DNA from: an uncultured Bacteroidaceae bacterium
GTDB lineage: Bacteria; Bacteroidota; Bacteroidia; Bacteroidales; Bacteroidaceae
DNA length: 64,000 nt
Assembly: GCA_905234125.1 (NCBI GenBank)
Contig: CAJOGQ010000001.1
Location: 1-64,000, forward strand
Direction of reading: 5' to 3'
Shown here one piece after another: positions 2,807 to 57,043 of the stretch. How positions within the stretch are numbered: the first letter of the stretch is position 1; the number at the start of each line of letters is the position of its first letter. The translations under genes and the position numbers were made by a program. The notes beneath the pieces are model-generated. The model worked only from the letters and a program-made list of their open reading frames with translations. It searched no databases and had not been told where the DNA came from.

Positions 2807-3055
2807 ATGATGGAATACAAGCCAACGTACACGAAAGAAGATGCGGATGAACTGGTGAAATGGTTCGAAACCCATACCTACGACACAGAATTGGATATGG
2901 GTGGCGGACTCTACATCGCCGATCTCCGAAACACTTTGCCCCAAATGCTTCATATTGTCAGGACGAAATATGATAATCGCACATTTTCGGGACAGATACA
3001 CCTGACGTTCAAAATCAGAGAAGAACTCATCAAACAGAACAAAGTGAGAAGTTGA
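2807..3055 (+). CDS. Small hypothetical protein (possibly DUF6965-like)
   Basis: 82-aa ORF closely following lpxB on the same strand; family guess is weak. Confidence 0.6.
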   Translation: MMEYKPTYTKEDADELVKWFETHTYDTELDMGGGLYIADLRNTLPQMLHIVRTKYDNRTFSGQIHLTFKIREELIKQNKVRS

Positions 3056-3057
3056 CA

Positions 3058-3099
3058 GTTGAGAGTTTAGGGTTGAGAGTTTAGGGTTGAGAGTTTAGG
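3058..3099. repeat. GTTGAGAGTTTAGG tandem spacer repeat
   Basis: Three near-identical ~14 bp units between the 2807..3055 ORF and rsmA. Confidence 0.75.
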
Positions 3100-3877
3100 G
3101 GAGTTCGGAGCTTACCCTATTGGTCAAATCTATATAGTCCTGCACAGACAGTTGTTCTGGACGTTGGGTGAAGATGGGGTCGGCCAACATGGGGGAGTCC
3201 TTGCCCAGAATCTGCTTCATACCATTGCGCATCATCTTGCGACGCATGGTGAAGACGGTCTTGACAATGCGACGGAACAGCTGTTCGTCACACCCCAACG
3301 TGCTCTTTCCATTGCGAGTGAGGCGAATGACGGCACTCTTCACTTTGGGAGGAGGATTGAACACATTCTCATTCACCGTGAAGAGATACTCCACATCGTA
3401 CCAAGACTGAATCAGCACACTCAGCACTCCGTATGTCTTGCTGCCAGGGGAGGCTGCCATGCGTTCTGCCACCTCCTTCTGAATCATGCCTGTGCAACAG
3501 GGAATGAGGTCTTTGTTCTCCACCATCTTGAAGAATATCTGTGAGGAGATATTATAGGGATAATTGCCCGTCAGGACAAAAGGACGTCCTCCAAACACTT
3601 CATGGAGGTTCATCTGCAAGAAGTCACCCTCGATGATGTTATCTCCCAACTGAGGGAAATGCTCATGGAGGTAAGGCACCGAATCAAAATCGATCTCGAC
3701 AACCTTGAACTCCCTACCCTTTGGGATGATGTATTGAGTGAGCACACCCATGCCTGGTCCCACTTCGAGAACAGGGATGTCAGGACAGGCGTCAATCGTG
3801 TCGGCAATGCGTTGCGCCACACTCAGATCGGTGAGGAAATGCTGTCCTAAGAATTTCTTTGGTTTTACTGTATTCAC
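3095..3877 (-). CDS. rsmA: 16S rRNA (adenine1518/1519-N6) dimethyltransferase
   Basis: KPKKFLGQHFLTD...VLEVGPGMGVLT...LTGNYPYNISSQI. Confidence 0.93.
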   Translation of the reverse strand: MNTVKPKKFLGQHFLTDLSVAQRIADTIDACPDIPVLEVGPGMGVLTQYIIPKGREFKVVEIDFDSVPYLHEHFPQLGDNIIEGDFLQMNLHEVFGGRPFVLTGNYPYNISSQIFFKMVENKDLIPCCTGMIQKEVAERMAASPGSKTYGVLSVLIQSWYDVEYLFTVNENVFNPPPKVKSAVIRLTRNGKSTLGCDEQLFRRIVKTVFTMRRKMMRNGMKQILGKDSPMLADPIFTQRPEQLSVQDYIDLTNRVSSELP

Positions 3878-47427: not shown

Positions 47428-50267
47428 GAGCGTTACTTGTCATCCTATTGCTAAGCATCCCCAGCTTCGGGTTTTCGCAGAGTCTGCAAAGCCAACTGAA
47501 GGACTGGGCTGAGAATTACACCCGCACTGACGCGAACATCAAACCCTCCACTGTGGTCTCGTGCGACATTGATGACGACGAGAAGGACATCCGCATCGTT
47601 TTCGGCGGAGGTTTTCCTGAACAGCACTTCACGCCCGAGGTTGTGGAGAGGATTTATCGGGACATCCGTTCCCTCATGCCGTCTTCACTCCGGAATTATG
47701 ATGTCGTCGTGGAGACAGACGGGCGTCCCATTGAAGACCTTGTCCCAAACTTCTTCCGGAAGGGAAAGAAAGACCACACGCGACTTCTGTCCGAGACCTA
47801 CAAGGGGGAGCCGTGGGTGAAGAATCTTTCGCGCCCCTACACGGCAGAGAAGGGTCTTGAAGGCAATCACATCGCCTTGTGGCAGAGTCACGGACGCTAC
47901 TACCGAGCCGAACGGAGCGACTGGTACTGGCAACGTCCTCGCCTGTTCTGCACCACCGAGGATCTCTTCTCGCAGACTTTCGTCATCCCATTCATCATCC
48001 CCATGCTTCAGAACGCAGGCGCCGTCGTCTTCACTCCTCGTGAACGCGACTACCAGACCCACGAAGTCATCGTGGACAACGACCAGCCCCACAAGAACGG
48101 CACTTATGTCGAGGCGTTCCGTCGGAAGCAGAAGCACACGAAATGGAAAACGACCGAGCAAAATGGATTTGCGCAGTACAAGACCACTTATACCTCTGCT
48201 GATTCTCCTTTCACCGACGGCAGTGCACGCTATGTGGCCACGACAACCTCTACCAAGGACGAGGGCATGGCGCAGTGGGTGCCTGACATTCCCGAAGAGG
48301 GGAAATACGCAGTGTACGTGACCTACCAATCCTACGAGAACTCAGTGGATGATGCCCTCTACACCGTCCACCACAAAGGCGGAACGACCGAATTCCACGT
48401 CAATCAGCAAATCGGAGGAGGCACATGGGTCTATCTCGGCACATTTGAGTTCGACGAGGGTCAGCACAACTACGGCATGGTCTCTCTGTCCAACATGAGC
48501 AAGCGAAAGGGCATCATCACCGCCGATGCTGTCCGATTCGGAGGAGGCATGGGCAACATCGTGCCCGAGGCGCATCCGAACATTCAGCCGTCGGGTTTGC
48601 CGAGATGGGCTGAGTGTGCCAAGTACAGCGTGCAGTGGTTCGGTTTCCCCTACAAGATTCACACGGAACCTTTCGGCGACAACGATTATAACAATGACAT
48701 CAACTCCCGATCGGCAGCCGTCAACTATCTGTCGGGCCATTCCATCTACAACCCCAACCGCGAGGACGGGCTGAAGGTTCCGCTCGACATCTCTGTCGCC
48801 TTCCACACCGATGCTGGCGTGAAGACCGACGATGCTTTTGTCGGTTCGTTGGGAGTCTATATGACCGACTTCAACGATGGCAAGACCGGCGCAGGCATGG
48901 ACAGATATGTGTCGCGCGACCTCATCAGCATGTTCCTGACGAACTTCACCACCGACCTGCGGAAATACCGTTGGCAGGTTCGTCAGCTCTGGAACCGCAA
49001 CTACGGCGAGGCCCGTGCCCCGATGCCTCCCGCCTGCATTCTGGAGATGCTCTCCCATCAGAACTTCGCCGACATGCGGTTGGCTTACGACCCGCACTTC
49101 AAGTTCGACCTCTCGCGCTCCGTCTATAAGACCATCGTGAAGTACATCGCCACGCTCTACAAGCGCGATTACGTCATCCAGCCACTGCCCGTCGAGAACT
49201 TCGCCATCACGCTGAATGAGCAGAAGCAGACCGCCACCCTTTCGTGGTCGCCTGTCGATGATCCCCTCGAACCGACGGCGCGTCCTAAGGAATATGTGCT
49301 CTACACCCGCCGAGGCCACCAAGGTTTCGACAACGGTATCATCGTCAAAGGGACGAGCCACACCGTCGAGCTGAATCCCGACGAAGTCTATTCCTTCAAG
49401 GTCACGGCTCTGAACGACGGTGGCGAGAGCTTTCCTTCTGAGGTCTTGGCTTGTGGCATCGCTTCGCAGAACAAAGGCACGGTGCTCATCGTCAACGGCT
49501 TCACCCGTCTTGAAGGTCCCAAGGTGATTGACACACAGACCGAGTGCGGTTTCGACCTCGATGCCGACCCCGGCGTTCCCTACGGAGCCTACACGGGTTT
49601 CTGTGGCCGCCAGCGCTCTTTCGACCGTTCGAAGGCAGGCAGTGAGGCCTCCGACGGACTGGGCATGAGTGGCATGGAGTTGGAGGGGCAGCTGATGATG
49701 GGCAACACGTTCGATTATCCCGTCATCCATGGTCGCGCCATCCTTCTCAGCCGCACCCATTCCTTCACCTCGTGCAGTGAGCAGTCACTCGCCGAGGGCA
49801 AGATTTCCCTCTCCGACTACCCCATCATCGACCTCATCTACGGCACCCAGAAGCAGTTCAACAGCCGCACCAACACGCTCGTCGAGCAATACTACAATCA
49901 GGGCGGCAAGGTGCTGATGAGCGCAGCCAATGCCGGATGTCCCACCATCGGCGGAACCATCGCAGGCCAACTCTCACCCATCAACTCTCAACTGTCAACT
50001 GTCAACTATCAACTGTCAACCATCACCGGTTGTGGCCTCACCTTCGACATCCATCGCGAAATGAATCCTGAGAGTTACTGCGTTCCCTCGCCGAGCGTGC
50101 TGGTTCCAGCGGGCAGTGCCATCCCCATCCTCACCTACGCCAACGGCAACTGCGCCGCCATCGCCGAGGAGCATCGCTTCGTCCGTCTCGGTTTCCCGCT
50201 CGAAAGCATCACCGACCACAAGACCATCAACGCCCTCACCCGTGCATTCCTCACCTTCCTTGAATAA
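47424..50267 (+). CDS. Secreted golvesin C-terminal-like / xanthan-lyase-like protein with Fn3-like segment
   Basis: Signal peptide; GKYAVYVTYQSYENSVDDALYTVHHKGGTTEFHVNQQIGGGTWVYLGTFEF golvesin-like segment; AAVNYLSGHSIYNPNREDGLKVPLDISVAFHTDAG. Confidence 0.82.
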   Translation: MRALLVILLLSIPSFGFSQSLQSQLKDWAENYTRTDANIKPSTVVSCDIDDDEKDIRIVFGGGFPEQHFTPEVVERIYRDIRSLMPSSLRNYDVVVETDGRPIEDLVPNFFRKGKKDHTRLLSETYKGEPWVKNLSRPYTAEKGLEGNHIALWQSHGRYYRAERSDWYWQRPRLFCTTEDLFSQTFVIPFIIPMLQNAGAVVFTPRERDYQTHEVIVDNDQPHKNGTYVEAFRRKQKHTKWKTTEQNGFAQYKTTYTSADSPFTDGSARYVATTTSTKDEGMAQWVPDIPEEGKYAVYVTYQSYENSVDDALYTVHHKGGTTEFHVNQQIGGGTWVYLGTFEFDEGQHNYGMVSLSNMSKRKGIITADAVRFGGGMGNIVPEAHPNIQPSGLPRWAECAKYSVQWFGFPYKIHTEPFGDNDYNNDINSRSAAVNYLSGHSIYNPNREDGLKVPLDISVAFHTDAGVKTDDAFVGSLGVYMTDFNDGKTGAGMDRYVSRDLISMFLTNFTTDLRKYRWQVRQLWNRNYGEARAPMPPACILEMLSHQNFADMRLAYDPHFKFDLSRSVYKTIVKYIATLYKRDYVIQPLPVENFAITLNEQKQTATLSWSPVDDPLEPTARPKEYVLYTRRGHQGFDNGIIVKGTSHTVELNPDEVYSFKVTALNDGGESFPSEVLACGIASQNKGTVLIVNGFTRLEGPKVIDTQTECGFDLDADPGVPYGAYTGFCGRQRSFDRSKAGSEASDGLGMSGMELEGQLMMGNTFDYPVIHGRAILLSRTHSFTSCSEQSLAEGKISLSDYPIIDLIYGTQKQFNSRTNTLVEQYYNQGGKVLMSAANAGCPTIGGTIAGQLSPINSQLSTVNYQLSTITGCGLTFDIHREMNPESYCVPSPSVLVPAGSAIPILTYANGNCAAIAEEHRFVRLGFPLESITDHKTINALTRAFLTFLE

Positions 50268-50273
50268 TATATA

Positions 50274-52106
50274 ATGTCCTTCCTCCCCACCACCAAGAAA
50301 GAAGTCGAGCGGCTCGGCTGGGATGCCCTCGATGTCATCATCTTCTCCGGCGACGCATACGTTGACCACCCATCCTTCGCGGCGGCGGTCATCGGACGCA
50401 TACTTGAGGCGGAAGGCTTGCGGGTGGCCATCGTTCCCCAGCCCGACTGGCATGGCGACTACCGCGACTTCAAGAAGCTGGGGCGTCCGCGCCTCTTCTT
50501 CGCCGTTGCGCCCGGGGCGATGGACTCGATGGTGAACAAATACACGGCCAACAAGCGTCTGCGCTCGGAGGATGCCTACTCGCCCGACGGCCGCCACGAC
50601 CTCCGTCCCGAATACCCCACCATCGTCTATACCCGCATCCTCAAGGAGCTCTTCCCCGATGTGCCCGTCGTCATCGGAGGCATCGAGGCCAGTCTGCGCC
50701 GACTCACCCACTACGACTACTGGCAAGACCGTCTCCTCCCGTCCATCCTCGTTCCCTCGGGCGCCGACCTGCTGATCTACGGTATGGGTGAGAAGCCGAT
50801 GGTGTCGCTGGCACAGCTCTTGGCAGAGCAGGACTGCGAGATAGACGTGAAGAGGTTCCGCAACCTCATGGCCCGTTTCCCGCAGCGACAGACCGTCTCC
50901 CTATTATATAAAAATGAGATTCCCGGCGGCATCCGTCCCGACGACATCGTGCTCCACAGCCACGAGGAATGTCTCCGCAACAAGCGTGCCCAGGCCGAGA
51001 ACTTCCGCCACATCGAGGAGGAATCGAACAAATATGAGGCGAAGCGCATCATACAGGAGACCGAGCCCCTTTTCGCCGTGGTCAATCCCCCCTACCAGCC
51101 ACTCACTCAGGACGAGCTCGACCGCTCCTTCGACCTGCCCTACACGCGTCTGCCCCACCCCAAGTACAAGGGCAAGCGCATCCCAGCCTACGAGATGATC
51201 AAGTTCTCCGTGTGCCTCCACCGCGGATGCTTCGGCGGATGCGCCTTCTGCACCATCTCCGCCCACCAGGGCAAGTTCATCACCTCCCGAAGCAAAGAGA
51301 GCATCCTGCGCGAGGTGAAGGCCATCACCCAGATGCCCGACTTCAAAGGCTACCTGAGCGACCTCGGCGGCCCATCCGCCAACATGTACGCCATGCACGG
51401 CAAGAACCTCGACCTCTGCCACCAGTGCAAGCGACCCTCGTGCATCCATCCCAAGATCTGCCCCAATCTCAACACCGACCACTCCGCCCTGCTCGACATC
51501 TACCGAGCCGTCGACCGAGTGCCCGGCATCAAGAAGAGCTTCATCGGCTCCGGCGTGCGCTACGACCTCCTCATGCACGACACCGGCGACGAGCGCTCCA
51601 ACCGCATCAACCGCCAGTACACCGAGGAGCTCATCACCCGCCACGTCAGCGGCCGTCTGAAAGTGGCGCCCGAACACACCTCCGACCGCGTGCTCTCCCT
51701 CATGCGCAAGCCCTCCTTCCAGCTCTTCTACGACTTCAAGCGCATCTTCGACGACATCAACCGCCGCCACAACCTGCGCCAGCAGATCATCCCCTACTTC
51801 ATCAGCTCCCATCCCGGCTGCACCGCCGAAGACATGGCCGAGCTCGCCTGTCTGACCAAAGACCTCAACTTCCAGCTCGAGCAGGTGCAGGACTTCACCC
51901 CCACGCCCATGACCGTCTCCACCGAGGCCTGGTACACCGGCCTCCACCCCTACACCCTCCAGCCCGTCTTCTCCGCCAAGACACAAAAAGAAAAACTGGC
52001 CCAACGCCAGTTCTTCTTCTGGTACAAGCCCGCCGAACGCCAAAACATCATCCGGCTGCTCCGTCAGATGGGCCGCGAAGACCTCATCCGCAAACTCTTC
52101 AAATAA
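50274..52106 (+). CDS. YgiQ family radical SAM protein
   Basis: MSFLPTTKKEVERLGWDALDVIIFSGDAYVDHPSFAAAVIGR; CLHRGCFGGCAFCTISAHQGKF Fe-S motif. Confidence 0.95.
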   Translation: MSFLPTTKKEVERLGWDALDVIIFSGDAYVDHPSFAAAVIGRILEAEGLRVAIVPQPDWHGDYRDFKKLGRPRLFFAVAPGAMDSMVNKYTANKRLRSEDAYSPDGRHDLRPEYPTIVYTRILKELFPDVPVVIGGIEASLRRLTHYDYWQDRLLPSILVPSGADLLIYGMGEKPMVSLAQLLAEQDCEIDVKRFRNLMARFPQRQTVSLLYKNEIPGGIRPDDIVLHSHEECLRNKRAQAENFRHIEEESNKYEAKRIIQETEPLFAVVNPPYQPLTQDELDRSFDLPYTRLPHPKYKGKRIPAYEMIKFSVCLHRGCFGGCAFCTISAHQGKFITSRSKESILREVKAITQMPDFKGYLSDLGGPSANMYAMHGKNLDLCHQCKRPSCIHPKICPNLNTDHSALLDIYRAVDRVPGIKKSFIGSGVRYDLLMHDTGDERSNRINRQYTEELITRHVSGRLKVAPEHTSDRVLSLMRKPSFQLFYDFKRIFDDINRRHNLRQQIIPYFISSHPGCTAEDMAELACLTKDLNFQLEQVQDFTPTPMTVSTEAWYTGLHPYTLQPVFSAKTQKEKLAQRQFFFWYKPAERQNIIRLLRQMGREDLIRKLFK

Positions 52107-52188
52107 GCGACGACATCGCGTCAGCCTTTCTGTGATTTCTGTGATTTCTGTGTGACCTTAAAAAAAAGTCCGTGTGCTTTCCGTGTGG

Positions 52189-53169
52189 CTATCCGCCGAA
52201 TCCCCCGCCTTCTGGTGGAGGCCCGCTGTTCTCGTCATCATTCGACCCGCCATTCTGATCAGACCCGCCATTCTGCTGGTTCTGCTGATCCACCTGATCA
52301 GAGCCCGGGAATCCTCCTCCCTCAGGTGGAGGGCCGCTGTTCTCATCGTCATTCGAGCTGCCACCCTGTTCGGAGCCGCCTCCATTGTTCTCATCACTCC
52401 CATTGCCCCCATTGTTCACATCAGAACCACCCTGCTGAGAGCCAGAGCCGTGAGCCATGGCGTGCTGGCGCACATAGTCGATGTTCTTGTTCAGACGATT
52501 GATGAGCTGGGCATAAGCCTGCGTGTCGTCGTTCACCACGGCGAACGAGTTGAGCAGAAGGACAAGCGCGCGGTACTCGGGATAGAGCGCCTCCCTGGCC
52601 TTCTTCACCGCCTGAACCTCGGGCGCAGCGTCGTTGCGCGACGTCATCAGCTGACGGAGTTCGCGCTCGATGGCGGCCAGACGCGTCATGGCGCCGGTCA
52701 GGCCCAAGGTCGCCGCATCGGTCTGGAGCGACGGGGTGGCATTCCACTCGCCCGTGAACTGCTCAATCTTCGACCACTCCGAAATCATGTTCTCCGTGGG
52801 GTCGATGCGGTGCTTGCGCACGAACTCATAAAACCTCGTGGCGGCCTGCTTCTTGTCCGAATCGAAGTCCATCCTCCAGAAGGCATCCACCAGCCCCTTC
52901 ACGCCATAGACGAGCTGGTCGCCCTCTGTGTCGAGCTTCGAAATGTCTGCCGTCTCCTCAGCCTTCAGTTGCTGGGCATAGACAACGTCCAGCGCCGTGT
53001 AGGCCGTGCGCGTGCTCTCTAACTGACGACCGAGCTTGGTGGGGATGGGGTTCTCCACCGTGAAGAACTCGTCGAACTGGTCGAGCGCATACTTCACCAC
53101 GCTGATGCACACGGCGTTCGTCGTGTTTCGCAGGTTCAATTCCTGCACTAAAACCGGAATATTTTCCAT
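52189..53169 (-). CDS. DUF6261-type protein with Gly/Asn/Ser-rich tail containing two SNDDENSGPPPEGGGF units
   Basis: MENIPVLVQELNLRNTTNAVCISVVKYALDQFDEFFTVENP...; alpha-helical-looking body and low-complexity tail. Confidence 0.8.
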   Translation of the reverse strand: MENIPVLVQELNLRNTTNAVCISVVKYALDQFDEFFTVENPIPTKLGRQLESTRTAYTALDVVYAQQLKAEETADISKLDTEGDQLVYGVKGLVDAFWRMDFDSDKKQAATRFYEFVRKHRIDPTENMISEWSKIEQFTGEWNATPSLQTDAATLGLTGAMTRLAAIERELRQLMTSRNDAAPEVQAVKKAREALYPEYRALVLLLNSFAVVNDDTQAYAQLINRLNKNIDYVRQHAMAHGSGSQQGGSDVNNGGNGSDENNGGGSEQGGSSNDDENSGPPPEGGGFPGSDQVDQQNQQNGGSDQNGGSNDDENSGPPPEGGGFGG

Positions 53170-53232
53170 AAGCGTTTTGGTTTAAGTTAAAGAAATAGTT
53201 TAGTTATTCTCAAGGCGCCGAAACGCCGAAAT

Positions 53233-53442
53233 GTTAAAATCCGAATGGCATACATGGGGTATGTCGAGCCTCTTTTCATCGTCGGGAACCTTTCCATGGG
53301 GTGTGGAATCCTTCTCGTCATCGCTGAGAACCTCTCCATAGGGTGTGAAATCCTTCTCGTCATCGCTGAGAACCTCTCCACGGGGTGTGAAATCCTTCTC
53401 AACATCGTCGGGAGCTTCTACATGGGGTGTGACGCCCCTCAT
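53233..53442. repeat. Five-unit 42-bp tandem repeat array in the leader of the DUF6261-type gene
   Basis: Units at 53233 (degenerate), 53275, 53317, 53359 and 53401; units 53317 and 53359 differ at only 2 positions. Confidence 0.9.
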
Positions 53443-53563
53443 CGCTCTACACTTCATCATGCACTTCTGCCACTTCCACAGGCGGAGGCCGTCCGCTATC
53501 TTTATGGTTTGACTTGTTTATATTCTTTCGGACTTATCTATTCTGAGGATTCAATCTCGCCCG

Positions 53564-53594
53564 CAAAGCTACGAAGTTGAATTTCCATTTCCAA
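53564..53594 (-). promoter_or_regulatory. Promoter reading through the 42-bp array toward the DUF6261-type gene
   Basis: Minus strand TTG-N20-TAGCTTTG (box at 53564-53571). Confidence 0.5.
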
Positions 53595-53663
53595 GCCTTT
53601 CCCCCATCTTTTCCCCATTTTCAACAAAGTTTAACATAAAACCTAATTTTTTTCCTCTTTTTC

Positions 53664-53695
53664 TTGTTCCGTATGACATTTTTTGCTTATCTTTG
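53664..53695 (+). promoter_or_regulatory. Divergent promoter upstream of the structured leader and lipoprotein genes
   Basis: TTG-N21-TATCTTTG; expected start near 53702. Confidence 0.5.
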
Positions 53696-53779
53696 CCCCG
53701 TGTTTCGAATGAGGCATGACATTTTATTTGCTCAAACCGCTTCTCAAACTTCCACATCAGACAAGCAAAAGAGCATCAA

Positions 53780-53907
53780 CTAACTACCTGTTGGAGTTCG
53801 CACCATGAAGTGCGGATTTCCTCATAAGGTAGTTAGGCTGTGGAAGGCCCGAGAAGCGTATGACGGAGGTCTGCACTTTCTTTGTGCCTGCAAGTTTGTG
53901 CAACCTC
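53780..53907 (+). ncRNA. Candidate structured leader RNA or sRNA, two hairpins, family unknown
   Basis: Hairpin 1: CTAACTACCT/AGGTAGTTAG (53780-53789/53827-53836) enclosing GGAGTTCGCAC/GTGCGGATTTC (53793-53803/53810-53820, with G-U pairs). Hairpin 2: GAGGT(c)TGCAC / GTGCAACCTC (53866-53876/53898-53907). Confidence 0.45.
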
Positions 53908-53954
53908 AACGAGAATGAATCTTTTATTATTCACTAACTTAATTATATAATATT

Positions 53955-54383
53955 ATGAGATGTAAAAAAATTTTTTGGAGTTTGCTGACCATCATAATGG
54001 TCGCAATGCTGAGTGTTGTTTTTGTTTCATGTAGCAGTGACGATGGCGATGGCGATGATAATGCAGGAGGATCTTCATCGGTATCAGGACTTTACTATTA
54101 TGAAACTGGCGGTGGCGGTAGAACCGCTTATAATTTTGTGAACAGCAATACTGTAGATGTGTATGGTTCAATGACACAGGATGGGAATGCCACTTGGTTG
54201 GGGGAAAAGGGAGAATCGTTTCCGCTACGTAGCGGCTGGTACTATTGGAAAGGCAACAAGCACACCTACAGCTATTACATTGTAGGGGATTTGGTCGTTA
54301 TTGGCTCGGACAGGTTGATGACAATCAGTGGAAATACGCTTATCTATGATGATTTGGGTGTCGTACTTTATAAATGGAATTAA
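53955..54383 (+). CDS. Small lipoprotein
   Basis: MRCKKIFWSLLTIIMVAMLSVVFVSCSSDDGDGDD lipobox; 142 aa. Confidence 0.8.
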   Translation: MRCKKIFWSLLTIIMVAMLSVVFVSCSSDDGDGDDNAGGSSSVSGLYYYETGGGGRTAYNFVNSNTVDVYGSMTQDGNATWLGEKGESFPLRSGWYYWKGNKHTYSYYIVGDLVVIGSDRLMTISGNTLIYDDLGVVLYKWN

Positions 54384-54391
54384 AAAAATGA

Positions 54392-55468
54392 TTGATTATG
54401 AAAAAGAATTTTTTAAGCTTAATGGCCATTCTGATGGTCGCAATCGTGAGTGCATGCTTTGTTTCTTGTAGCAAAGATGACAGCAACAACAATGAAGAAT
54501 CGAACAACGAAACCTCTATTGTCGGAACATGGAGAAGGGATTTCAGTTGGGGATATATTCTTTTGACTCTGAATCCTGATGGGACAGGACTATTGAGCGA
54601 ATATGAAAAGGGAAAACTTGAATATTCCGATCCAATATCCTATTACTTCGACAAAGAAAAGGATAAATATATGATTATTGAGCAAGATGGGGAATATACA
54701 TACATCACTCCAGTTCAATATTACGATAAAACTACATTGGTAGTGATGGAGGACGGGGAAACCAAAACATGGACACGGGTGACAAGCGACAATGGCAACA
54801 ACAATGAAGAGTCGAACAATTCTGGCTCAATCATAGGGACGTGGCTTGACCAGTGGGGTGAAGGCCCAAGATCTTACACTGCCTACACCTTCTTCGAGAA
54901 GGGCAAGGGATTGTATTTTGACAAGGGGAATGGTGCAGAGGCATTCACCTACACATACAATCCCCAATCTCAATCAGTTATCATTGTTTACAGCGAATAT
55001 GACAAAGATGAGTTGTCAATATCTAAGTCGACATCCAATGGTCTGACCATAGAGGGCGATGAATATAAAAAGACTGAGTTGACGTATGACATGTTGATTC
55101 TTGGCGAATGGAATCTGCATGTCGGTGGTATCAATACTGATGGTGAATCCGGCAAAAGCACAAGAGTTGTGTTCACCGCAGACTGGAAAGTTGAAGGAAC
55201 TGGAACCTATGAAGCAAAAGACTACTACAACTCTGATGCGAGCGATGAATGGTATTATTCATTCTCTGGCCTAAGCGGAAAAGTCAGCGGAACATGGTCT
55301 ATTACCGATAACCGCCTATCCATCAAAGGTCAGTCACAGATAGCTGGTGAATACATCATTGAAGGACTTGTAGTGAATGGGTGCCGTCTCGTAAGAGCAA
55401 GTAATCCCGATGAATATCCTTATCTGACGGGAGGTTGGTGGCATCAGAGAATACCTTCGGGGTGGTAA
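54392..55468 (+). CDS. Lipoprotein with repeated lipocalin-like (IxGTW) domains
   Basis: Signal peptide resembles that of 53955..54383; repeated SIVGTW / SIIGTW / LILGEW segments separated by NNNEESNN linkers. Confidence 0.8.
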   Translation: MIMKKNFLSLMAILMVAIVSACFVSCSKDDSNNNEESNNETSIVGTWRRDFSWGYILLTLNPDGTGLLSEYEKGKLEYSDPISYYFDKEKDKYMIIEQDGEYTYITPVQYYDKTTLVVMEDGETKTWTRVTSDNGNNNEESNNSGSIIGTWLDQWGEGPRSYTAYTFFEKGKGLYFDKGNGAEAFTYTYNPQSQSVIIVYSEYDKDELSISKSTSNGLTIEGDEYKKTELTYDMLILGEWNLHVGGINTDGESGKSTRVVFTADWKVEGTGTYEAKDYYNSDASDEWYYSFSGLSGKVSGTWSITDNRLSIKGQSQIAGEYIIEGLVVNGCRLVRASNPDEYPYLTGGWWHQRIPSGW

Positions 55469-55512
55469 ATACCAAGGCTGCCCCCTTAAAAGGGTGGACT
55501 TATGTTTGATGA

Positions 55513-55578
55513 CAGAAAAAAATCACTTCGGGAAGATGCCACTGAATTAGTCAGTGCGTCCTCCCGAAGTTTTTTCTG
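55513..55578. terminator. Long near-perfect hairpin terminator
   Basis: CAGAAAAAAATCACTTCGGGA...TCCCGAAGTTTTTTCTG with inner CACTGA/TCAGTG stem. Confidence 0.8.
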
Positions 55579-55739
55579 TATAGAATATTACTCGATTGCT
55601 TCATCATTTCATACAGATACGCGGGGCTTTGCACATAGAGTTAGTTCACCTCGTCCTATTTGATGGTGTATAAGTTTGCGGGGGTTATTCAGGTTTGTTG
55701 GTCAAGATGCTAATGGTTTCATCGAACTCGGCAAGGATT

Positions 55740-55880
55740 TTATAATCTCTTGCGTTCTTCGCGGATTCTTTTATGCTCTTCGTCTGCCTGCTCCTGCCAC
55801 TCGCGCTTCTTGCGGATGGACTCTCGGACTGCGGCGATGATTTCGTCGCGTGTGCGGTTTTTGTAAGCTACTGATACCAT
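55740..55880 (-). CDS. 46-aa charged small protein MVSVAYKNRTRDEIIAAVRESIRKKREWQEQADEEHKRIREERKRL (not in ORF track)
   Basis: Manual translation of the minus strand; coherent amphipathic/charged helix; below the 60-aa track cutoff. Confidence 0.5.
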   Translation of the reverse strand: MVSVAYKNRTRDEIIAAVRESIRKKREWQEQADEEHKRIREERKRL

Positions 55881-55977
55881 AACAATCTATTTTAAATTAC
55901 TTTTCGCTTGCAAAGGTAAGTATTTCTTCTCAATGAAAAAAGAAATCGGGAAGTTTTTTTGAAAGAAATGGTTGATA

Positions 55978-56925
55978 TCATTTCCTCACCCTCCACAACT
56001 GCCAGGAGTTGACGAGGTTGTGCCACAAGGAATAGAATCCGCCGGCTAAGGCCGTGACGGGATTGAGGAAGGTGTAGCCCATCCAGATGGCGAAGACCGT
56101 GTTCTTCTGTCCGAGGCTCTGCGTGCCTGCCACCGGTTCCCCATGCTTGCGTCCGATGAGCCGACCCAGCACGAACTGGAGCAGGCAGCAGAGGAAGGAG
56201 GCGATGGCGATGCCGACCATGTTCCAGAGGCTCTCCTCGCTGTGCACCAGCGCCTTAACCGACACGCCGATGGCCAACGAAAGGGACACCGCCCAGAGAT
56301 TGAAAGCTAAGTTGGGCTGGCGCAGGATGAAGGCGTGGAACCGCGGGAACAGATGCCTCACCAGCCATGCCACCACCAAGGGCATGATGAGCAGAGGGAA
56401 GACTTTCGCCAGAATGAGCAGGAAGGAAATCTCGAATGTCATGCCAGGCGTCGCACTCTCGTGGAGAAACGGCACCATCGCCGGCACGACCAGCGACACG
56501 GCCAGATTGATGAGACATGTGTAGCTGACCACCACGTTGGCATTGCCATGGAGTCGGGTCGTCACCACTGCCGCAGCTGTCGCCGTCGGACAAATCATGC
56601 AGATCATCGCGCTCTCCACCACCACCCGGCTCGGCATCTCTGGCATCCACACCACCAGCAAACCCATCGCCACGAAACTCACCACCTGAATGGCGAGCAA
56701 CTTCAGCATCCATGCCCGGGGCTTCAGCTCGCGAATGCCCATGCGGCAGAAACTGACGAACAGCATGCAGAAGAGGAGGGTCGGCTGCACATAGCTGATA
56801 GCCTTGAGCACGACCTCGTGCGTCGCGTCCAACGCCGGAATGCTTACATATATATAATAGGAGGCCGCGCCGACCGCCATCGCTATCGGCAACATCCAGT
56901 TTTTTATGAATGTGATGATTTTCAT
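55978..56925 (-). CDS. Bile acid:sodium symporter-like membrane transporter
   Basis: About 10 TM; CMICPTATAAAVVTTRLHGNANVVVSYTCLINLAVSLVVPAMVPF typical of the BASS fold; start ATG 56925 preferred. Confidence 0.75.
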   Translation of the reverse strand: MKIITFIKNWMLPIAMAVGAASYYIYVSIPALDATHEVVLKAISYVQPTLLFCMLFVSFCRMGIRELKPRAWMLKLLAIQVVSFVAMGLLVVWMPEMPSRVVVESAMICMICPTATAAAVVTTRLHGNANVVVSYTCLINLAVSLVVPAMVPFLHESATPGMTFEISFLLILAKVFPLLIMPLVVAWLVRHLFPRFHAFILRQPNLAFNLWAVSLSLAIGVSVKALVHSEESLWNMVGIAIASFLCCLLQFVLGRLIGRKHGEPVAGTQSLGQKNTVFAIWMGYTFLNPVTALAGGFYSLWHNLVNSWQLWRVRK

Positions 56926-57043
56926 TTCGACGGCAAAGTTACGATTAAGTGAGCACATAATAAAGGAAAAAACAAAGGTTTTTGCTTTTCACTTTCCACT
57001 TTTCACCGAAATATGCTACCTTTGCCCCACAAAAAGTCCGCAC

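Follow-up and report, generated by a model that had tools for sequence, protein, structure and literature searches.

Tandem arrays of 41/42-bp period and changing sequence precede DUF6261 genes across the Bacteroidota

Nearly all genes of the DUF6261 family are preceded, across the phylum Bacteroidota, by tandem arrays that keep a period of 41 or 42 bp while their unit sequences change, and one such array lies in the 64,000-nucleotide stretch analyzed here (the window; contig CAJOGQ010000001.1 of an uncultured Bacteroidaceae bacterium). The arrays are helically phased, and in four genomes DUF6261 and HU-HIG proteins have genome-specific C-terminal tails in common. We see about an even chance that these are private, iteron-like DNA-binding arrays of a HU-HIG/DUF6261 nucleoid system, with the DUF6261 product or a partner sharing its tail probably autoregulating.

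DUF6261 loci were drawn from the genus, the family, named public genomes, and the phylum. A TRF survey of up to 800 bp upstream (periods 38 to 45 admitted) covered the 95 assessable loci from the genus, family, and named genomes, and found a 40- to 43-bp array in 71 of them, with periods of 40 (2 arrays), 41 (37), 42 (30), and 43 (2) and with 2 to 14 copies across loci and species. In a threshold-free lag test (lags 24 to 69; 111 DUF6261 loci), the best upstream lag was 41/42 in 98 loci, compared to 45 of 673 random windows and 9 of 103 regions downstream of DUF6261 genes, and most loci without a TRF array displayed a degenerate 41/42 periodicity. The phylum-wide sample, loci of another class included, gave a best lag of 41/42 in 18 of 19 loci. 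Away from DUF6261, five arrays of 38 to 45 bp were found in DUF6261-positive genomes (763 kb) and zero in DUF6261-negative ones (375 kb), background rates that come from small sampled stretches of mostly draft genomes. Common descent makes the locus counts non-independent, a concern reduced by the distribution of the loci over many genera and at least two classes. A sequence-only reading of the window had set absence of the array before other DUF6261 genes as the main refuting condition for its proposal; when this was run, the best lag was 40 to 43 in 104 of the 111 loci, so the link between array and DUF6261 is correct and far broader than that reading had proposed.

DUF6261 genes were also seen on Treponema-binned contigs (L085, L092, L093, L119, and L126), where the proteins were 46 to 60% identical to a Phocaeicola one and three of the loci had clear 41/42-bp arrays; these reflect either gene transfer or a binning error. 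Further genes lay on two short, unverified "bacteriophage" contigs from feces (L314, MT839608.1; L315, MT837725.1) and on the 568-kb second replicon of Prevotella nigrescens (L313, NZ_CP082843.1).

Unit sequences were alike only between DUF6261 proteins more than about 60 to 70% identical, the orientation then being the same, and arrays of paralogues within one genome had nothing in common (13 pairs). Some nearly identical proteins had unrelated arrays, e.g., L040 (genome G023) and L027 (G033), at 96% identity; both of these arrays were of 42 bp, the protein differences fell within the first 70 residues, and the start of the gene may have been swapped with the array as one piece. Units diverged from their consensus by 11% on average, and the step from unit to unit equaled the period in 250 of 263 cases, being off by one base in the other 13. 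Four helical turns span 41 to 42 bp. Within the units, purine content oscillated at a quarter of the unit (peak 10.4 bp, z 10.3), which was the largest signal among 60 indicator-by-harmonic tests. In a held-out replication, the quarter-unit harmonic was dominant in 13 of 34 loci versus 2 of 33 controls. Only about one third of the arrays had the 10.4-bp signal as the dominant one, and that of the window had a slightly stronger half-unit harmonic. With a 41/42-bp period and a 10.4-bp oscillation, the arrays are direct repeats at whole helical turns, as in iteron and operator arrays. Many units also contained short inverted repeats (16 of 71 arrays at p < 0.05 versus shuffles), with no strand preference.

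The features of the window are collected in Table 1. TRF called its top-scoring array of the window here (period 42, 53276-53432, score 209), and 42-bp stepping along the minus strand extended this to five contiguous units. The lag-42 identity was calculated over 84 bp, and the arrays before the orthologous genes in G023 and G018 were 79% and 77% identical to that of the window; given this identity and these related arrays in other species, the array is not a product of chance. The five spacer-free units of the sequence-only reading were thereby reproduced, and the unit listing bore out its exactly two differences between the central units and its degenerate outer units, while the inverted repeat GAGA-ACC-TCTC that it had placed in each unit is complete in the two central units only. 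The array is single-copy, no second one being found in its own draft genome, and its folding displayed no excess (z +0.74). The units are contiguous, whereas CRISPR arrays have unique spacers between identical repeats, and Rfam 15, run over 50000-56000, returned two sub-threshold matches only, none at the array. TRF also detected tandem repeats of another kind (GTTTAGAGTTGA-like; period 7, 14, or 21 bp) at 735-810, 1640-1677, 3045-3100, and 49968-50025. Among 29 relatives, at least 14 have the radical SAM gene directly before the transporter gene (window 55978-56958), so the segment between them was either inserted here or lost there. Relatives of the window gene in other genomes of the genus have differing neighbor genes, and gene and array thus appear to move together.

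Table 1. Features at the DUF6261 locus of the window
Feature	Coordinates	Strand	Basis
Tandem array, about five 42-bp units	53233..53442	minus	TRF; 42-bp stepping; lag-42 identity 0.89
Bacteroidota-type promoter-like motif TTG-N20-TAGCTTTG	53564..53594	minus	consensus match, upstream of array; candidate only
DUF6261 gene: all-helical domain (about residues 1-235) and acidic low-complexity Gly/Asn/Ser tail	52189..53169	minus	PF19775, AlphaFold
C-terminal tag GPPPEGGGFGG, genome-specific, common to HU-HIG proteins of the same genome	52189..52225	minus	recurrence of last ~37 nt
Segment with DUF6261, array, and two lipoprotein-like genes, between radical SAM and transporter genes	52107..55977		missing in relatives

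The promoter-like motif that the sequence-only reading had noted on the minus strand of the window was confirmed in sequence, and its position matches a putative leader of about 390 nt holding the array. Full motifs of this type were scored up to 200 bp upstream of the array and between the array and the ATG. They occurred upstream at 7 loci, the window included (0.6 expected), and between array and ATG at 5 loci, each about tenfold over shuffles. Nineteen of the 71 arrays reach to within 50 bp of the ATG, which leaves no space for a promoter. The arrays as tandem promoters were rejected, as TAnnTTTG occurred once in 15 kb of array versus 13 times in 10.5 kb before the arrays. The gene preceding the array often encodes, in the same direction, a surface protein with an end like a type 9 secretion signal (GIYI..GKKV.VK; L021, L022, L023, L033, L041, L045, L050, L070, L109, L111, and L122).

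Related arrays also exist apart from the gene. The array at the DUF6261 locus of Prevotella sp. oral taxon 376 matched its own genome 7 times, and further matches were in Segatella baroniae (28), Prevotella illustrans (24), Hoylesella pleuritidis (3), and Segatella buccae (1); in these counts, neighboring parts of one array may be scored separately. Stand-alone arrays related to DUF6261 arrays lay between unrelated genes, in every orientation and without DUF6261. Another dispersed repeat, about 65 bp long (GGTTCGGAATAAG...TTTAATG...GATTGCCAA; L188, L189, L195, L197, and L109), possibly the end of a MITE, adjoins some stand-alone arrays of P. illustrans and occurs at many array-free sites too, in both orientations.

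The window gene belongs to PF19775 (E 7.7e-22; 78.3 bits against a cut-off of 27). AlphaFold, run with 39 sequences, gave a confident all-alpha model with nine helices and no strands (pLDDT 92.6, pTM 0.67), for which Foldseek found no match in the PDB or among viral proteins at E ≤ 0.001; no sequence relative was found in the PDB either. Searches of Pfam, NCBIfam, PADLOC, PHROGs, Rfam, and PDB sequences and folds returned DUF6261 or insignificant matches only, and PF18291, the HU-HIG family, gave no match in the protein, i.e., no HU domain was detected. The DUF6261 domain is acidic, carries no known DNA-binding domain, and is unlike any solved structure, and the protein itself is therefore perhaps not the binder.

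A connection to HU-HIG proteins (PF18291, a family of the HU/IHF superfamily, reportedly defined by Burroughs et al. in 2017) came from the end of the gene. The last 37 nt of the window DUF6261 gene recur at eight further loci of its own genome, and the five with enough sequence encode HU-HIG proteins. Among DUF6261 paralogues, 8.1 of the last 12 residues were identical within a genome, compared to 1.8 between genomes. In a five-genome sample, tails were also shared between DUF6261 and HU-HIG in G018 and G004 and, in a variant form, in G023, while none were in G020 (loci of the tail observations: L318-L325, L335, L340, L343, L350, and L354). HU-HIG genes of the same genus without the Gly tail had a best upstream lag of 21/22 in 13 of 15 cases; in control windows this lag was best in 115 of 936, and at an identity of ≥0.6 in only 5 of 936. 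These repeats were often palindromic (e.g., TGGAATATATATTCCA or GTTCATAAGTTATGAAC) and gene-specific (L332, L336, L342, L347, L348, L352, L333, L328, and others), and their purine phase differs from that of the DUF6261 arrays. The Gly-tailed, tail-sharing HU-HIG genes were mostly without clear upstream arrays. A HU-HIG search in the sampled stretches yielded only seven ORFs, with controls contaminated by DUF6261 arrays, and was left out of the array statistics. Among the papers searched, none described the DUF6261 array system, and the only one to name DUF6261 did so in a table of mutations; the HU-HIG upstream repeats may already have been noted in the paper that defined HU-HIG.

The sequence-only reading had offered a repeat RNA leader, in which the array would be transcribed and DUF6261 would recognize the RNA of each 41/42-nt unit, as in type III toxin-antitoxin systems. 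We regard this as unlikely. Short direct repeats right before the gene, in a kept orientation, would fit it, as would the promoter-like motif upstream of the array at the window and six other loci and the arrays that end too close to the ATG for a promoter, and one well-sampled repeat family has an excess of G.U among its stem changes (55:25, largely due to a single position). Over the 71 arrays, however, sense stem changes to G.U and A.C were balanced (53:52), and the folding excess was equal on the two strands (mean z -1.11 and -0.96, paired p 0.12). The missing strand preference, together with promoter-like motifs both before and after arrays (between array and gene at five loci), tells against a transcribed leader, as do the stand-alone arrays in all intergenic contexts, the helically phased purines, the lack of an Rfam match in or near the array, and the predicted all-helical fold of DUF6261, which is not the beta-barrel toxin fold. 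The same reading had also suggested that the array could be translated as a repeat peptide, an explanation to which we give next to no credence: several frames are indeed open through the window array, because 42 is a multiple of 3, but 41-bp arrays, as common as the 42-bp ones, rotate the frame, which rejects a leader peptide family-wide. No sense frame was open in 24 of the 33 arrays with a period that is not a multiple of 3, and the predicted peptides had no family match.

Functionless minisatellites, i.e., intergenic repeats that grow by slippage and owe their period to the mutation process, would be consistent with the rapid replacement of unit sequences, with the dispersed copies in some genomes (some having a second dispersed repeat alongside), and with the precedent of BrickBuilt in the same order (PMC4596501). 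Nevertheless, the arrays occur at more than 90% of the loci of one gene family phylum-wide while such periods are rare elsewhere, other periods have no comparable peak, and the purines are phased, so that neutral repeats seem distinctly improbable to us. The spread of 2 to 14 units among loci and species could also point to a phase-variable switch, the third proposal of the sequence-only reading, in which a strain-variable unit number would tune the expression of the gene; many arrays seem to turn over slowly, as their units have diverged by about 11%, and we consider such a switch very unlikely.

The reading that we prefer, arrays of DNA-binding sites, draws on the four-turn period, the 10.4-bp purine oscillation, and the nearly indel-free unit spacing, which argue for a DNA element, on inverted repeats that have no strand preference, and on a period that is kept though unit sequences are unrelated, in arrays found on either side of promoter-like motifs. 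That DUF6261 and HU-HIG form one system is suggested by the tail common to both in four genomes and by the 21/22-bp repeats before HU-HIG genes. From these observations we infer binding, cooperativity, and autoregulation. The nucleoid-protein system would consist of DUF6261 proteins and HU-HIG proteins, the latter combining an HU domain with an Ig-like or Gly-rich part. Each gene would have a private array just before it, with 41/42-bp units for DUF6261 and 21/22-bp units for HU-HIG. An array would line up protein-binding sites at intervals of four helical turns, all facing the same way, and the DUF6261 product, or a HU-HIG partner with the same tail, would assemble on it cooperatively. The likeliest use of this assembly would be to set the expression of its own gene, autoregulation being the simplest use as the array lies upstream of the gene in each case, and repeat copies at further intergenic sites in some genomes may be additional assembly sites. 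Against the DNA-array reading stand the acidic nature of DUF6261 and its lack of a known DNA-binding domain, the G.U lean in one repeat family, a purine signal that is dominant in only about a third of the arrays, the differing purine phase of HU-HIG arrays, and the scarcity of arrays at Gly-tailed HU-HIG genes.

The broader proposal, a phylum-wide and undescribed chromosome system of the Bacteroidota in which tagged HU-like and DUF6261 families have private arrays of conserved spacing and free sequence, we make tentatively and with somewhat less than even confidence. If it is true, every paralogue would be provided with a separate platform for assembly, e.g., for chromosome organization or for marking self versus foreign DNA. 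It is unusual for a repeat length to be kept across a phylum while the sequence is not, and the array offers a way into DUF6261 and HU-HIG, two large families of the Bacteroidota that are so far unexplained. The DNA-array model predicts binding spaced by four turns, a sensitivity to insertions of 5 bp, and co-assembly via the common tail, and a 41/42-bp or 21/22-bp array upstream could serve as a search rule for new members.

Among known systems, plasmid iterons and parC-type centromere repeats are iteron and operator arrays, and the DUF6261 arrays resemble them as direct repeats at whole helical turns beside the gene of the presumed binder, possibly autoregulatory. They differ in their 41/42-bp unit, in a sequence that is wholly different between paralogues and genera, and in being chromosomal and phylum-wide, with a putative binder; we know of no array in which the period is kept while the sequence changes completely. 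In type III toxin-antitoxin systems (ToxIN, CptIN, and TenpIN), a repeat RNA encoded upstream of the toxin gene restrains the toxin, and there too short direct repeats of tens of bp stand immediately before a gene. However, the DUF6261 fold is unlike ToxN, with no sign of the ToxN/CptN/TenpN fold (Pfam gave DUF6261 only and PADLOC nothing, and the all-alpha model had no significant PDB match), RNA-level selection was not seen, the period is fixed at 41/42, and related stand-alone arrays exist. REP/RAYT elements, in which a gene lies beside its own repeat type, are similar in this adjacency and in the extra repeat copies elsewhere in some genomes, but DUF6261 is not a transposase and its arrays are head-to-tail with a fixed period. 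BrickBuilt of Porphyromonas gingivalis, a minisatellite of 23-nt repeats in a MITE with leader and tail segments, likewise consists of head-to-tail intergenic repeats scattered through a genome from the same order, but has one 23-bp sequence in one species and no linked gene family (PMC4596501), whereas the window unit is 42 bp. Finally, HU-HIG proteins differ from DUF6261 in having the HU domain and in their 21/22-bp instead of 41/42-bp repeats, but both families have the genome-specific tail, expansion in the Bacteroidota, and upstream tandem repeats in common.
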